Assembly (NCBI RefSeq): GCF_030908245.1
Contig: NZ_JAVFJJ010000017.1
Span: 1 to 64,000 of the forward strand
DNA length: 64,000 bases
DNA from: Sinomonas sp. ASV322
Lineage (GTDB): Bacteria; Actinomycetota; Actinomycetes; Actinomycetales; Micrococcaceae
Reading direction: 5' to 3'
Shown: piece by piece, positions 21,291-26,070 of the stretch
Numbering within the stretch: position 1 is the first letter of the stretch
Layout of the letters: the number at the start of each line of letters is the position of its first letter
Position numbers and translations under genes: made by a program
The notes under the pieces: generated by a model
The model's input: only the letters and a program-made list of their open reading frames with translations
Databases searched by the model: none
Told to the model about the DNA's origin: nothing

Positions 21291-22474
21291 GCCTCAGAGA
21301 ACAATTCGGCAAGGACATCCTTATCACCGGCTGGGGCCACAGCCGCTTCGGGAAGCTCTCGGAGGAGACGCTCGAGTCCCTCATCGTGCAGGTCGCGGGG
21401 GAGGCCCTCGCGCACGCGGGTCTCGAGCCGGGGAAGATCGACGAGATCTACGTCGGCCAGTTCAACGCCGGGATGATGCCGCTCGCGTTCCCGTCCTCGC
21501 TCGCGCTCCAGCTCTCCCCGGACCTGCTCGGCGTCCCGGCGACGCGCGTCGAGAACGCGTGCGCGTCGGGTTCGGCCGCTGTTCAGCAGGGCGCGAAGGC
21601 GCTCCTGGCCGGGACGGCACGGAACGTGCTCGTGATCGGGGCCGAAATGATGACCCCGGCCGGGCCCGAGAAGGTCGGTGCGGCCCTCCTCGGCGCGGAT
21701 TACGACATGGCCGGCCAGCCGTCGTCGGCCGGTTTCACCGCCCTGTTCGCGGAGGTCGCGAAGCACTACGAGAAGCGGTACGGGCCGGTCTCGGATGTGC
21801 TCGGGAGCATCGCGGCGAAGAACCACCGCAACGGCGTCGACAACCCCTACGCGCAGCTGAGGAAGGACCTCGGCGAGGAGTTCTGCCGGACGGTCTCGGA
21901 CAAGAACCCGATGGTCGCCGATCCGCTGCGGCGCACCGACTGCTCGCCGGTGTCCGACGGCGCCGCGGCCCTCGTGCTGTCCGTCGCACCCCGCGCGGGG
22001 GCCGCCACGGCGCCCGTGCGGCTCGCCGGCTTCGGCCACGCCAACGACTTCCTGCCGGCCGCCCGCCGCGACCCGACCGCGTTCGAGGGCGTGCGCCTCT
22101 CGTGGGAGCGCGCCTTCGCGATGGCCGGAATCGGCCTTGGCGACCTCGACTTCGCCGAGGTCCACGACTGCTTCACGATCGCCGAACTCGTCATCTACGA
22201 GACGATGGGCCTCACTCCGGCCGGGCAGGGCGCCCGCGCGATCGAGGAAGGCTGGGTGTATCGCGACGGCCGCCTGCCGGTCAATGTCTCGGGCGGGCTC
22301 AAGGCCAAGGGCCACCCCGTCGGCGCGACGGGTGTCTCCCAGCACGTCCTCGCGGCGATGCAGCTCACGGGCACGGCGGGCGCGATGCAGCTCGCTTCGC
22401 CGCGGCGCGCCGCGGTGCAGAACATGGGCGGCGTCGGGATCGCGAACTACGTGAGCGTGCTCGAGGCGGTGTAG
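21287..22474 (+). CDS. Thiolase-family (SCP2-type) acetyl-CoA acyltransferase
   Basis: A 395-residue thiolase fold enzyme. The nucleophilic Cys is in [12 protein letters not shown] near residue 92, with later active-site segments [10 protein letters not shown] and [15 protein letters not shown]. The layout is closer to SCP-x/SCP2-type thiolases than to classic PhaA. Translationally coupled to the CoA-transferase, probably cleaving the 3-oxoacyl-CoA product. Confidence 0.88.
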
Positions 22475-22516
22475 CCGGCCCTTCCCCTCGGCCATGCGGT
22501 GCTCTACCGTGTCCGC

Positions 22517-22999
22517 ATGCCATCCCGCGGGCTGACTTCCCTTGCCGCCGACGCGCGCTGGACGGGTCACGCCGTCGGCATGGTGGGCGCCGCGGTCGCC
22601 GTCCTCGCGGCTGCCGCGGGTGCGGCGAGCGAGGTGGTGCTCGCCGGGCTGGCGGTCACGGTGTCCGGCGCGGCGACCGCGCTGCTCGCCCAATGGCGGA
22701 TCGACCGCGCGTGGATCCGGTCTCGGGTCCGGCAAGCGGCGCCAGCGGACGACGACGGCGCCGCGCCCTTGAGTGCCCCGCCCGCCCTTGCGCTCGCCGG
22801 GGCTGGCGCGGCCCGTGGCGAGGCCCGCGTTGCGTCGGCGTCGGGCGCTCGGCTGGCTCGGCTCGGCGGGCGGTCCCTCGCGCGCGTGAGGCCGGGGGAG
22901 CTGACTGCGGACGTGAGGGCGGCGCTGCGCTATGTACGGGGCGCCCTTCCCCGGCCGAGTTCGAGGCCGCGGCCGAAGCGTCTGCCCTGCTCGCCGTGA
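22517..22999 (+). CDS. Hypothetical membrane protein (possible N-terminal part of a frameshifted gene)
   Basis: A 160-residue product with two hydrophobic helices near residues 17-58, then an Ala/Arg-rich region. The last 25 residues are Arg/Pro-rich and look unnatural, while the +1 frame over the same bases reads protein-like (AEFEAAAEASALLAV) and continues into the next gene. Either two genes share a GTGA junction or one gene carries a frameshift near 22930. Confidence 0.5.
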   Translation: MPSRGLTSLAADARWTGHAVGMVGAAVAVLAAAAGAASEVVLAGLAVTVSGAATALLAQWRIDRAWIRSRVRQAAPADDDGAAPLSAPPALALAGAGAARGEARVASASGARLARLGGRSLARVRPGELTADVRAALRYVRGALPRPSSRPRPKRLPCSP

Positions 23000-23379
23000 C
23001 GGTCTTCGACGGCCACAGCGGCAGGGCGTGGGAACGGCTGATGCTCGCCATGCCGGACACGCTGGCACTGCTTCGCGATGAGGACCTGCGCCCCGGTGGG
23101 CTCCCCGGCCATCTGCCGCTCATGGTCGCGGCCCGAGAGTTCGAGAGCTGCGCCTTCTGGCTCCCCGAGGACCGCGGGCTGCGCGGCCCGTCGCCGCACG
23201 TCTCCTACACGACCTCTCCCGACGGCGATATCTACATGGCCCTCGGGATTTCGCACCGGGGCACAGTGCGATTCCGAATTCGCTCGTCGGAATGGAGCGA
23301 CGGGCCGGATCGGGTTCTGCGGTGGTTCGAGTTCGAGCGCCTCGCGAATCTCATGGCCGACGCCTTCCGGCAACGCTGA
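22996..23379 (+). CDS. Hypothetical protein
   Basis: A 127-residue soluble protein of unknown function, with Trp/Phe-rich segments (FESCAFWLPEDRG, RVLRWFEFERLANLM). GTG start overlapping the previous stop (GTGA). If the upstream gene is frameshifted, this is the C-terminal part of a protein of about 290 residues. Confidence 0.55.
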   Translation: MTVFDGHSGRAWERLMLAMPDTLALLRDEDLRPGGLPGHLPLMVAAREFESCAFWLPEDRGLRGPSPHVSYTTSPDGDIYMALGISHRGTVRFRIRSSEWSDGPDRVLRWFEFERLANLMADAFRQR

Positions 23380-23396
23380 TCCGGGGGCGCGCGCTC

Positions 23397-23477
23397 CTGT
23401 GCCGCTTCGCCGCAATTGTGCTGCTGGGCCGCGGCCCAATAGCGGGGAAGGGCGCCCGCTGCGGGGAAGCGGCACAG
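23397..23477. repeat. Left inverted repeat of the AbiEi/nuclease cassette
   Basis: An element of about 80 nt whose own ends form an 11-bp inverted repeat (CTGTGCCGCTT and complement). Its reverse complement recurs at 24543-24602 with two mismatches and one 19-nt indel. Sits 50 bases before the cassette gene. Confidence 0.85.
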
Positions 23478-23526
23478 AAGCGCGTGATGGGACCTCCGAG
23501 AGTTATCCACATACGGGACCTGTGGG

Positions 23527-24510
23527 GTGTCCTCGACGGATTCCGCCGAGCACGATGGCTCTGTGGACGCAGATTCAGCAGGACGACTCATCGCCGATCG
23601 ATGGCCCGCAGGGATCGTCGCCTCGACGCGCCAACTGCGTGACGGAGGCCTCGACGACAGGCTGATCACGTTCGGCGTTCGCGCGGGCGTCCTCGAACGA
23701 ATCCGTCGCGGGGCCTACACCCGGTCGGAACAGTGGCGCTCGCTCAGCCCGTGGGAGCGGGACGACTACCGCATCGATGCCCACGCCGCGGGCGCTCAGA
23801 GCCCCGCCACCTACAGCCACACCTCCGCCGCGCGGCTCCATGGTTTCGCGGTGTGGAACGCGGGGCCGGTGGTCCATGTGGTGAGTCGAGACAACTCCGG
23901 GTCGAGCCACGGGTCAGACACGGTGACGCATCGCGCCCCCGCGTCACCCGATGAGCCCGTCGGCGTTCGCACCCGCGACGGTCGGCACGTGCTCGCGACG
24001 TCGCCCGCGCGGACCGTGATTGATTGCGCGCGTTTTCTTGCACCGGAAGCGGCGGCGGTCATCGGCGACAGCGCATTGAACGCCGGCCTGACAATCGGCG
24101 AGCTCACTTCAACGCTTGAGTCGGCGGAGTTCGCGCGAGGGCGGGCGCGGGCCGCGCGACTCCTCGGAATGCTCGACGGCCGCGCAGAGTCGGCCGGCGA
24201 AACCCGCACTCGCCTGATGCTGGGCGGGCTTGGAATCGAGCGGCCCGAGGCCCAGTACTGCATCGAGACGGCTCACGGCCTCTTCCGTGCCGACTACGCA
24301 TGGCCCAGGCTCAGGGTCATCCTCGAATTCGACGGCCGGGGCAAGTACTTCGACTATCGGCCCACTCCCGAAGCCCTCATCCTCGAGCGACGGCGCGAGG
24401 CGGCACTCATCGAGCAGGGGTGGACGGTCATTCGGATCACCTGGGCCGACCTCGACCGGCCTGAAGTCGTGGCCGCGAGGCTGGGTGCGGCGTTCGCGAG
24501 GGCTGCGTGA
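23527..24510 (+). CDS. AbiEi-type antitoxin-like protein with C-terminal PD-(D/E)XK/DUF559-like domain
   Basis: A 327-residue protein. The N-terminal winged-helix region resembles type IV AbiEi antitoxins (QLRDGGLDDRLITFGVRAGVLERIRRGAY). A middle domain has TSPARTVIDCARF. The C-terminal DUF559-like nuclease fold has FRADYAWPRLRVILEFDGRGKYF (Asp, Glu-F-Asp) and the end strand QGWTVIRITWADL. No AbiEii toxin partner is adjacent. GTG start. The gene is enclosed by nearly identical inverted repeats of 79 and 60 nt. Confidence 0.8.
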   Translation: MSSTDSAEHDGSVDADSAGRLIADRWPAGIVASTRQLRDGGLDDRLITFGVRAGVLERIRRGAYTRSEQWRSLSPWERDDYRIDAHAAGAQSPATYSHTSAARLHGFAVWNAGPVVHVVSRDNSGSSHGSDTVTHRAPASPDEPVGVRTRDGRHVLATSPARTVIDCARFLAPEAAAVIGDSALNAGLTIGELTSTLESAEFARGRARAARLLGMLDGRAESAGETRTRLMLGGLGIERPEAQYCIETAHGLFRADYAWPRLRVILEFDGRGKYFDYRPTPEALILERRREAALIEQGWTVIRITWADLDRPEVVAARLGAAFARAA

Positions 24511-24542
24511 CGGACGGCTTCACCTCAGCGCGCCGACCCAGC

Positions 24543-24645
24543 TGTGCCGCTTCCCCGCTATTGGGCCGCGGCTCCGCAGCACAATTGCGGCGAAGCGGCA
24601 CAATTGCGGCGAAGGGCGCCCGGTGCGGGGAAGGGCGCCCGCTGC
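24543..24645. repeat. Right inverted repeat of the AbiEi/nuclease cassette, with extra modules
   Basis: The 60-nt core (24543-24602) has perfect 10-bp ends, TGTGCCGCTT and AAGCGGCACA, and is the reverse complement of the left element. A tail (24603-24645) repeats the GCGGGGAAGGGCGCCCG module that appears once in the left copy. It ends at the stop of the convergent gene. Confidence 0.85.
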
Positions 24646-24649
24646 GAGG

Positions 24650-25261
24650 TCATCTCCCGAACGCGAGCTCCGTCGTCGTGTCCCACGTGAACCTTCCCCG
24701 CTCGGTGTCCTGGTGCACCGCCAGGAAGTGGAGGCCGGCGACGGCGAGCGGCGGCACCGGCCCGCCGAGCGCGTCCGACGCGCGCTGGATGCGTTCGCCG
24801 CTGCCCTCGGCCACGCCGTAGCCGAGCGTGACGTGGGGAGCGAACGGCGGGTTGGGAATCGGGAGGCCCGCGTTGACGGTCTCCGCCGCGGCGGCCCGGA
24901 CTCCGTCGAGGAGGGCGCTCCATTCCGGCGTGGACGGGCCCCGGACGCCGAGCGAGAAGTCGTCGACGACGGGCGCGGCGAGCGGCACCGTGAACGGTTT
25001 CGTCGAGGCGGCGAGGTCGCCGAGGCGCCCAATGAAGCGTTCGACGGCGGCCGGGTCGGCCTCGTCGTTCGTGTGGGAGAGCTGCTGGACCGTCGCGTGG
25101 AGGTACTCGGCAGGCTGGACCGAGCAATAGTCGACGTCGTCGAGGGCCCGCTGCCGCTCGACGAGGGCGGACCTCAGCTCGTCGCCCGGCAGGACGTACA
25201 CGTGCAGGCGGTTCCGCATCGACGGCCAGAGAGTCGCGGGTTCCCCAAAGAAGCGCTTCAT
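24650..25261 (-). CDS. 2'-5' RNA ligase / cyclic phosphodiesterase (2H) family protein
   Basis: A 203-residue 2H phosphoesterase-superfamily protein with the two H-x-T motifs, LHATV and PHVTLGYG, roughly 85 residues apart. Likely hydrolyses or forms 2',5' or cyclic phosphodiester bonds; substrate unknown. ATG at 25261. Divergent from the RibA-like gene. Confidence 0.85.
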   Translation of the reverse strand: MKRFFGEPATLWPSMRNRLHVYVLPGDELRSALVERQRALDDVDYCSVQPAEYLHATVQQLSHTNDEADPAAVERFIGRLGDLAASTKPFTVPLAAPVVDDFSLGVRGPSTPEWSALLDGVRAAAAETVNAGLPIPNPPFAPHVTLGYGVAEGSGERIQRASDALGGPVPPLAVAGLHFLAVHQDTERGRFTWDTTTELAFGR

Positions 25262-25320
25262 GCGCAGCAAGGTATCCGCGGTTCGTGAACGGGAGGTGAA
25301 ACTTCCGCTCACCCGGAATA

Positions 25321-25336
25321 ACTTGAAACATCAAGT
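25321..25336. promoter_or_regulatory. Short inverted repeat in the RNA-ligase/RibA divergent region
   Basis: ACTTGA at 25321-25326 and TCAAGT at 25331-25336 with a four-base spacer, in an AT-richer patch 41 bases before the RibA-like start. Could be a regulator site. Confidence 0.4.
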
Positions 25337-25377
25337 GCGTTGGTTCCCGTAGTTGCCATCGACCATTGGAGCCGACC

Positions 25378-26070
25378 ATGACCCTCGAGCCCAGCGCGCT
25401 AGCCCAGCTGCCGACGGCGAACGTCCGCACTCGCGTCCGCGTCCCGCTCCGCTTCGCCGACGGCTTCGAGACCGTCGCCGACGTCTTCACGTTCCACGAT
25501 CTCGTCGACGGCCACGAACACCTGCTGCTGGGCCTCGGGGACTGGGCTGGCGCCGTCGAACGCTCGACGGCGGGAGGCGAGCCGCCGCTCGTCCGCCCGC
25601 ACAGCGAGTGCCTCACGGGCGACGTCTTCGGCTCCCAGCGCTGCGACTGCGGCCCTCAGCTTCGAGAGGCGGTCGAGCGGATCTCCGCCGCCGGCGGGTT
25701 CCTTCTGTATCTGCGCCAAGAAGGGCGCGGGATCGGGCTCTACGCGAAGCTCGACGCCTACGCGCTCCAGGACGACGGCCTCGACACGTACGAGGCGAAC
25801 CTCGCCCTCGGCCGCGGCGAGGACGAGCGAGACTACCGCGCCGCCGCACAGATGCTGCACGCCGTTGGCGCCGACCGGATCCGCCTCCTGAGCAACAACC
25901 CCGACAAGGCGGGGCAGCTCGAGGCACTCGGCGTCGAGGTCGCGGAGCATGTTCCCACGGGCGTGCACGTCTCGGCGTCGAACGTGCGGTATCTCGAGGC
26001 GAAGCGCGACCGCACGTCGCACACGCTCGACCTCGCGGGCATCGGCGAGCTCTTCGGCGTGACGGCCTGA
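25378..26070 (+). CDS. ribA: GTP cyclohydrolase II-like protein (RibA domain)
   Basis: A 230-residue protein with the zinc/active-site motif HSECLTGDVFGSQRCDCG (three Cys) and the following YLRQEGRGIGLYAKLDAYALQD, both diagnostic of GTP cyclohydrolase II, the first riboflavin step. It lacks the DHBP synthase half and no other rib gene is near, so it may be an accessory paralogue. ATG at 25378; a TTG four codons earlier is possible. Confidence 0.88.
   Translation: MTLEPSALAQLPTANVRTRVRVPLRFADGFETVADVFTFHDLVDGHEHLLLGLGDWAGAVERSTAGGEPPLVRPHSECLTGDVFGSQRCDCGPQLREAVERISAAGGFLLYLRQEGRGIGLYAKLDAYALQDDGLDTYEANLALGRGEDERDYRAAAQMLHAVGADRIRLLSNNPDKAGQLEALGVEVAEHVPTGVHVSASNVRYLEAKRDRTSHTLDLAGIGELFGVTA

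Follow-up and report, generated by a model that had tools for sequence, protein, structure and literature searches.

RAYT tyrosine transposases are the only kind of enzyme known to accompany REPIN-type repeats. In the literature on REP/REPIN-RAYT systems (PMC2817692, PMC3733652, PMC8049555), RAYTs meeting the criteria of a 2010 survey are reported from gammaproteobacteria only. Nucleases of the Vsr/DUF559/MTES_1575 kind have described or proposed roles in mismatch repair (PMC12907096) and in conflict or restriction-type systems (PMC3710099), and among the EDxHD homing endonucleases such as I-Bth0305I, one is reported to form dimers on a target of nearly 60 bp (PMC3943268); in the open-access literature searched we find no link between DUF559/AbiEi-nuclease genes and REP-like repeats. 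Here we analyse a 64,000-nucleotide stretch of Sinomonas sp. ASV322 (contig NZ_JAVFJJ010000017.1, positions 1 to 64,000; hereafter, the window), in which one gene for a protein with an AbiEi-like part and a Vsr/EDxHD-type nuclease domain lies between two inverted copies of a palindromic repeat. We consider it likely that this locus is a REPIN/RAYT-like unit whose cognate enzyme is an AbiEi-Vsr nuclease and not an HUH transposase. We lean, with less assurance, towards the wider proposal that AbiEi-Vsr nucleases form a new class of DNA-mobility enzymes, each driving private palindromic or terminal-inverted repeats under DnaA-tied expression, and that REPIN-type genome parasites (or partners) have here arisen a second time, independently.

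The layout resembles that of REP/REPIN-RAYT units ("REPtrons"), with a single gene between two inverted palindromic-repeat copies (in the window and in 93 of 132 homologues), a dispersed and mainly extragenic repeat, inverted doublets (13 of 20 stretches in genome G354) and repeat-specific genes. It differs in that RAYTs are tyrosine transposases with PF01797 (HUH/Y1 transposase), which is matched neither by the window protein nor by any of 22 aligned members of its family, and in that the REPs there carry a GT(A/G)G head, which is not enriched at the foot of the repeats here (6/83 against a shuffled mean of 9.9). In the window, the upstream element of 79 nt (23398 to 23476) starts 18 bases after the stop codon of the preceding frame (23377-23379), and the downstream element of 60 nt (24543 to 24602) is its inverted copy; both palindromes are given without a strand. 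They share TGTGCCGCTT at the start and AAGCGGCACA at the finish, and the alignment of element 1 with the reverse complement of element 2 spans 56-57 nt and contains two mismatches and one single-base gap, the difference in size being one extra 19-nt unit in element 1. The repeat is built on a 19-nt period, and two further units of the same family (families D1 and D2, again without a strand) follow element 2, from 24603 to about 24643. The elements are GC-rich without T-runs, and each folds on itself, with predicted RNA energies of -52.6 and -40.2 kcal/mol, calculated without a shuffled control.

The flank-to-flank score at the window locus is 97, compared to a maximum of 42 in 1000 first-order Markov shuffles of both flanks. 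The 79-nt element and near-identical inverted copy that a first-pass annotation had described around one gene are confirmed. That annotation was also right to place an AbiEi-like plus nuclease gene within the repeats and, among the neighbours scanned, to see no transposase, and its phrase "cassette with its own nuclease" comes close to the reading we prefer; it overlooked the dispersal of the repeat, the 19-nt period and a TTATCCACA box, and is as a whole supported in part. The nuclease gene (23563 to 24510, plus strand) is the sole gene between the two elements. Its open reading frame was listed from GTG 23527, and the true start is probably GTG 23563, because homologues begin there and the DnaA-box-like motif TTATCCACA (23503-23511, plus strand) sits exactly 60 nt 5' of this in-frame codon.

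The protein combines an AbiEi DNA-binding part with an EDxHD/Vsr-type nuclease fold. Pfam matches among the window protein and the 22 aligned members are to AbiEi_4, MTES_1575, DUF559 and AbiEi_3_N, with MTES_1575 found in 15/22 and DUF559 in 8/22 members at E ≤0.01, both falling below the Pfam cut-offs in the window protein itself; PADLOC AbiEi models match all 22. As candidates for the EDxHD active site, E225, D256, E267, D269 and R290 are invariant in 22/22 members, a statement of conservation within the family. None of the 22 members has an NCBIfam match, in PHROGs one of three proteins has a single weak match, to an entry of unknown function, and a PDB search with the 22-member profile yields weak matches only (best 3hrl, E 0.028). 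The ratio of nonsynonymous to synonymous substitution rates is about 0.1-0.2, so that the gene seems to be kept under purifying selection while the repeats multiply, and a homologue is present in 207 of 394 genomes sampled in a class-wide search of Actinomycetes. The protein shares its fold with the I-Bth0305I-type (Vsr-like) homing endonucleases, but its gene is intergenic, outside any intron or target gene, is accompanied by short repeats dispersed in the genome, and encodes an AbiEi-like part at the N-terminus. It shares its DNA-binding part with the AbiEi antitoxin of type IV AbiE systems (PMC3985639), but has a C-terminal nuclease domain, and no AbiEii (DUF1814) toxin gene is found in the five frames neighbouring the window gene. 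The MTES_1575 and DUF559 domains common to members are those of the Vsr/DUF559/MTES_1575 nucleases, for which no repeat partner is described in the accessible parts of PMC12907096 and PMC3710099.

We find that the bracketing layout is a trait of the family and not a one-off. The first homologues viewed, from other species of the genus, Arthrobacter silviterrae and Rothia nasimurium, have by eye repeats on both sides with quite different sequences. Homologues were then drawn from genus-, family- and class-wide searches (60 fetched beyond the first ones), and the 400 nt before the start were compared with the 400 nt after the stop by local alignment, with a threshold score of 42 (genomes, contigs and loci are denoted G, C and L). 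A score of at least 42 is reached in 77 of the 110 loci of the first set and in 93 of the 132 homologues retained, against 45 of 3000 mismatched flank pairs, so that a check for the repeats around homologues, proposed with the first-pass annotation, is strongly positive. The 93 comprise 75/107 of the first set, 2/3 further loci of the same family and 16/22 class-wide loci outside the family, 3 of the 25 class-wide loci (L319, L320, L324) belonging to the window's own family. Shared stretches range in length from 36 to 138 nt (median 74). The 132 exclude L156, a duplicate of locus L040 that is kept in the 110-locus sets and left out of the co-divergence test and later counts, L042 (sister strain of L041), removed for this count only, and five loci, one of them from the first set, with less than 300 nt of flank (L099, L323, L340, L343, L346); L130 and L320, the same place and both negative, are both included.

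As controls, 203 genes of 200-500 codons were taken from the window and from twenty stretches of 20 kb in related genomes, and just 6/203 reach the threshold. These include a gene with a weak DUF559 match (E 0.0034, below the Pfam cut-off) that looks by eye like a family member, a transposase with rve and HTH_38 domains, which we take to be of IS30 type, an Abi_2 gene (score 44), and two neighbours in L353 (scores 474 and 486) that look like one duplicated stretch; the sixth gene has no match. Among paralogues, L033 scores 70 inverted and 107 direct, and L032 stays under the threshold at 35/39. L043, a distant homologue from an uncultured Acidimicrobiales metagenome-assembled genome (gene 392-1360, 27% identical), also has related repeats on both sides with a direct score of 94 that are not palindromic by eye, and at L038 a run of tandem repeats (GCGGGTGCCGCCCCATCCAAGGGTCACCACC) immediately precedes a distant paralogue.

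Each gene has its own repeat. Among paralogues of one genome, the upstream and downstream flanks of the same gene match in 50 of 71 cases, and the upstream flank of one paralogue matches the downstream flank of another in just 1 of 158 (L146 with L143). Repeat similarity rises with protein identity across 83 loci (Mantel r 0.52, 0/2000 permutations), a correlation to which plain descent of close relatives may contribute and which it may inflate. Given these flank scores, this specificity and the rarity of bracketing around control genes, we dropped the plain reading of a gene caught between selfish repeats; the first-pass suggestion that such repeats merely bracket a defence gene is unsupported because each paralogue has its own.

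The repeat is dispersed. BLAST of the window repeat against its own genome gives many further copies, and a consensus search finds at least 18 places, two of them beside the gene and hence at least 16 elsewhere, with dispersed copies 79-94% like the consensus; copy numbers here and below are lower bounds. The presence of repeats at many loci without the gene, which the first-pass annotation took as a sign against its cassette, is thus real, and points instead to a REP/REPIN-type family with a cognate gene. Among the matches listed, the repeat recurs in only 2 of 14 other genomes of the genus, at one place each. Most of the repeat families tested are dispersed, with 2 to more than 40 other copies. 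For eight families searched in G269, G222 and G196, further own-genome places number at least 6 and at least 5 for the L102 and L113 families in G269, at least 2 each for the L140 and L156 families in G222, and at least 10 and at least 6 for the L108 and L114 families in G196, and L108-like and L156-like copies are present in the other genomes too. In the window's genome inverted doublets were not seen, and short tandem arrays of window-repeat units occur at G000:C2:8472-8614 (L018) and G000:C31:181313-181430 (L015).

Simple gene calls of our own place 15 of the 16 other window-genome places (C3:111230 is not included) between convergent genes in 8 cases, codirectional genes in 5 and divergent genes in 1, with 1 undecided; of 13 copies in G269, G196 and G222, 7 lie between convergent, 3 between codirectional and 1 between divergent genes, and 2 fall in a called frame. 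This distribution bears on whether the AbiEi-like part could be an autorepressor, with the repeats as its binding sites, the dispersed copies as its regulon and no mobility at all. In S. agalactiae, AbiEi binds its own promoter at two inverted repeats (PMC3985639), one repeat here does lie upstream of the gene, and the PADLOC AbiEi models match 22/22 members. Yet the second copy sits 3' of the gene, the dispersed copies lie mostly behind genes (8 convergent, 5 codirectional, 1 divergent and 1 undecided of 15), inverted doublets and presence or absence between species resemble mobile DNA, and a regulator has no need of a conserved nuclease site. We hold regulation alone to be unlikely.

The repeats themselves take two forms. 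Most in the first set are palindromes (49/67 loci with z >3 against base shuffles; median length 73 nt), and in several genomes of one other family (f27) the flanks are true terminal inverted repeats, about 80 nt long and with AATGATCA(C/T)GTT on the outside. Matches to these repeats number at least 59 in G354, at least 51 in G370 and at least 46 in G385, the listed matches in the last falling at at least 44 places, and many of the copies in these three genomes are inverted pairs. In G354, 13 of 20 fetched stretches have both outer-end motifs, inverted and 166-208 nt apart, 11 of the 20 having been chosen because a pair was already visible, and four of the 13 (L404, L405, L407, L408) have flanks in common, as copies of a longer repeat. 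These pairs have the doublet form of REPINs. Short inverted doublets, terminal repeats and tens of copies also recall the miniature inverted-repeat transposable elements of DDE insertion sequences, but the gene between the repeats here does not encode a DDE transposase, and no target duplication can be read at the ends compared or at the empty sites, whose junctions are too diverged.

Related species differ in which copies they carry. The joined flanks of ten G354 doublets (L405, L407 and L408 omitted as near-copies of L404) were searched in 12 genomes of the genus, G354 included; the tally covers the matches listed, "filled" is judged by length, and L402, L404 and L406 gave nothing usable. 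At L411 the flanks meet with 0 extra bases in G429, and nothing or less lies between them also in G469, G487, G530 and G449; the same holds for L399 in G439 and G487, L398 in G469, G429, G408 and G419, L400 in G469, L401 in G487, L417 in G370, and L403 in G439. About one doublet (166-197 extra bases) separates the flanks in G336 at L399, L400, L401 and L417, and in G370, G439 and G487 at L400, the family repeat being confirmed between the flanks in G370 (C407:2684-2758); some genomes have 38-121 or more than 500 extra bases between the flanks of a site. The window's species has a single repeat (L003) where three sister species have repeat-gene-repeat, with flanks aligning at 83-84% and 76-77%, which fits relocation or loss of the gene via its repeats, though the two loci may have had independent histories.

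Two Rothia genomes (G295 and G296) provide a second comparison. A 68-nt repeat (family A) occupies at least 16 and at least 21 places in the two, and comparison of 14 stretches of one genome with 18 of the other gives counterparts for 13 of the 14, two of them one-sided (L263, at a contig end, was left out). Of six traced places with family A in one genome only, five hold in the other a palindrome of about 63 nt (family B; at least 24 places in G295 and at least 16 in G296) and one lacks 107 bp. Both families resemble A5-stem-T5 bidirectional terminators, and 18 of the 34 Rothia loci examined (some places counted in both genomes) lie between convergent genes. Such features would suit repeats that serve the host as bidirectional terminators or useful hairpins, which the protein processes or guards, for example by resolving cruciforms, with duplication a rare by-product; the replacement of one Rothia family by the other at the same places and the purifying selection on the gene are in keeping with this. 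It leaves the bracketing of the gene itself and the doublets unexplained, however, and the GC-rich window repeats lack T-runs. We rate a host function of this kind as unlikely, slightly below regulation.

The Rothia data also bear on the idea that an unrelated transposase elsewhere spreads the repeats and that a defence or repair gene was caught between two copies. Repeats are indeed common without the gene, family B has no nearby gene in the fetched Rothia loci, and a two-gene helix-turn-helix (HTH)/membrane cassette is bracketed by B repeats in one strain; but own-versus-cross flank specificity (50/71 against 1/158), co-divergence and rare control bracketing (6/203) do not fit a bystander, and we regard this as the least probable of the explanations considered. 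The cassette, an HTH regulator and a membrane protein in about 950 bp, lies at G295:C4 104359-105303 (L279), the corresponding place in G296 (C2 182682, L252) having a single A palindrome. The alignments of the two genomes break off at the repeat at L233/L247 and L238/L257, and the other genome has the right flank of L247 some 4 kb further along; strain-specific segments therefore seem to begin at repeats.

The upstream box is shared across the family. TTRTCCACA, which we take to be the DnaA box of high-GC actinobacteria, occurs in coding-strand orientation in the 200 nt upstream of 63/109 homologues, compared to 0/299 control genes, and on either strand in 66/110 upstream windows, compared to 0/110 downstream or distant upstream windows. 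Allowing any third base, the stretch from -250 to +60 contains the motif in 82 of 109 loci, 77 of which have an in-frame start 57-64 nt after it (42 as called, 35 at another in-frame start). The box is present in 19/33 repeat-less homologues against 63/76 repeat-bearing ones, and so belongs to the gene and not to the repeat. From its place 60 nt upstream, we would guess that expression of the gene is tied to DnaA or to replication initiation.

Taken together, these comparisons suggest an unrecognised kind of bacterial mobile DNA. In the reading we prefer, the AbiEi-like part, probably as a dimer, would recognise the palindromic or terminal repeat, and the EDxHD/Vsr-type domain would nick or cut at that site, perhaps while replication leaves the hairpin extruded or single-stranded; repair might then copy the repeat into new intergenic places, or replace the family already present at an occupied place by a different one, with expression possibly timed by DnaA or replication initiation through the upstream box. 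Several observations weigh against this. Transposition, binding and cleavage by the protein are steps that we infer, and its structure model is middling (mean predicted local distance difference test score 68.8). No flank repeat scores above threshold in 39 of the 132 homologues, descent may account for part of the co-divergence, and the box occurs without the repeats. The window repeat shows no sign of a recent burst, its copies being only 79-94% like the consensus; the L128 and L144 families of G269 (2 of the 8) have no copy away from the gene among the matches listed, and 2 of the 13 copies in G269, G196 and G222 fall within a called reading frame. Family B comes without a homologous nuclease gene in the fetched Rothia loci, so that some repeats live without a nearby gene. 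Target-site duplications, which the first-pass annotation proposed to look for along with empty sites, are not visible at the terminal-repeat ends compared, and the empty-site junctions are too diverged to read.

If the gene family does drive the repeats, a second, unrelated enzyme would do in actinobacteria what RAYT tyrosine transposases do, the Vsr/homing-endonuclease fold would gain a role in moving short repeats, and the common "AbiEi/DUF559" annotation would take on a meaning other than its present one of antitoxin or defence. Repeats and enzyme would then be testable together in vitro, and a box at a fixed distance offers a handle on a possible timing of such elements to replication. 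RepRanger counts 5,512 REPs for an Arthrobacter (PMC12306157), a figure we set aside because it counts short palindromes (mostly 10-30 nt in E. coli) and not families of a single repeat.

No group I intron or other known RNA is found at the window locus, Rfam giving no match up to E 1 at 22400-25600; the gene is intergenic. The five neighbouring frames scanned encode a LigT-like phosphoesterase, two pieces of an unknown frame, a thiolase and GTP cyclohydrolase II; no transposase is among them, the rest of these genomes not having been searched for other transposases. The frame before the upstream repeat (22499-23379) seems to shift near 22940, with 22499-22999 in one frame and the part ending at 23379 in another, through a frameshift or a sequencing error.
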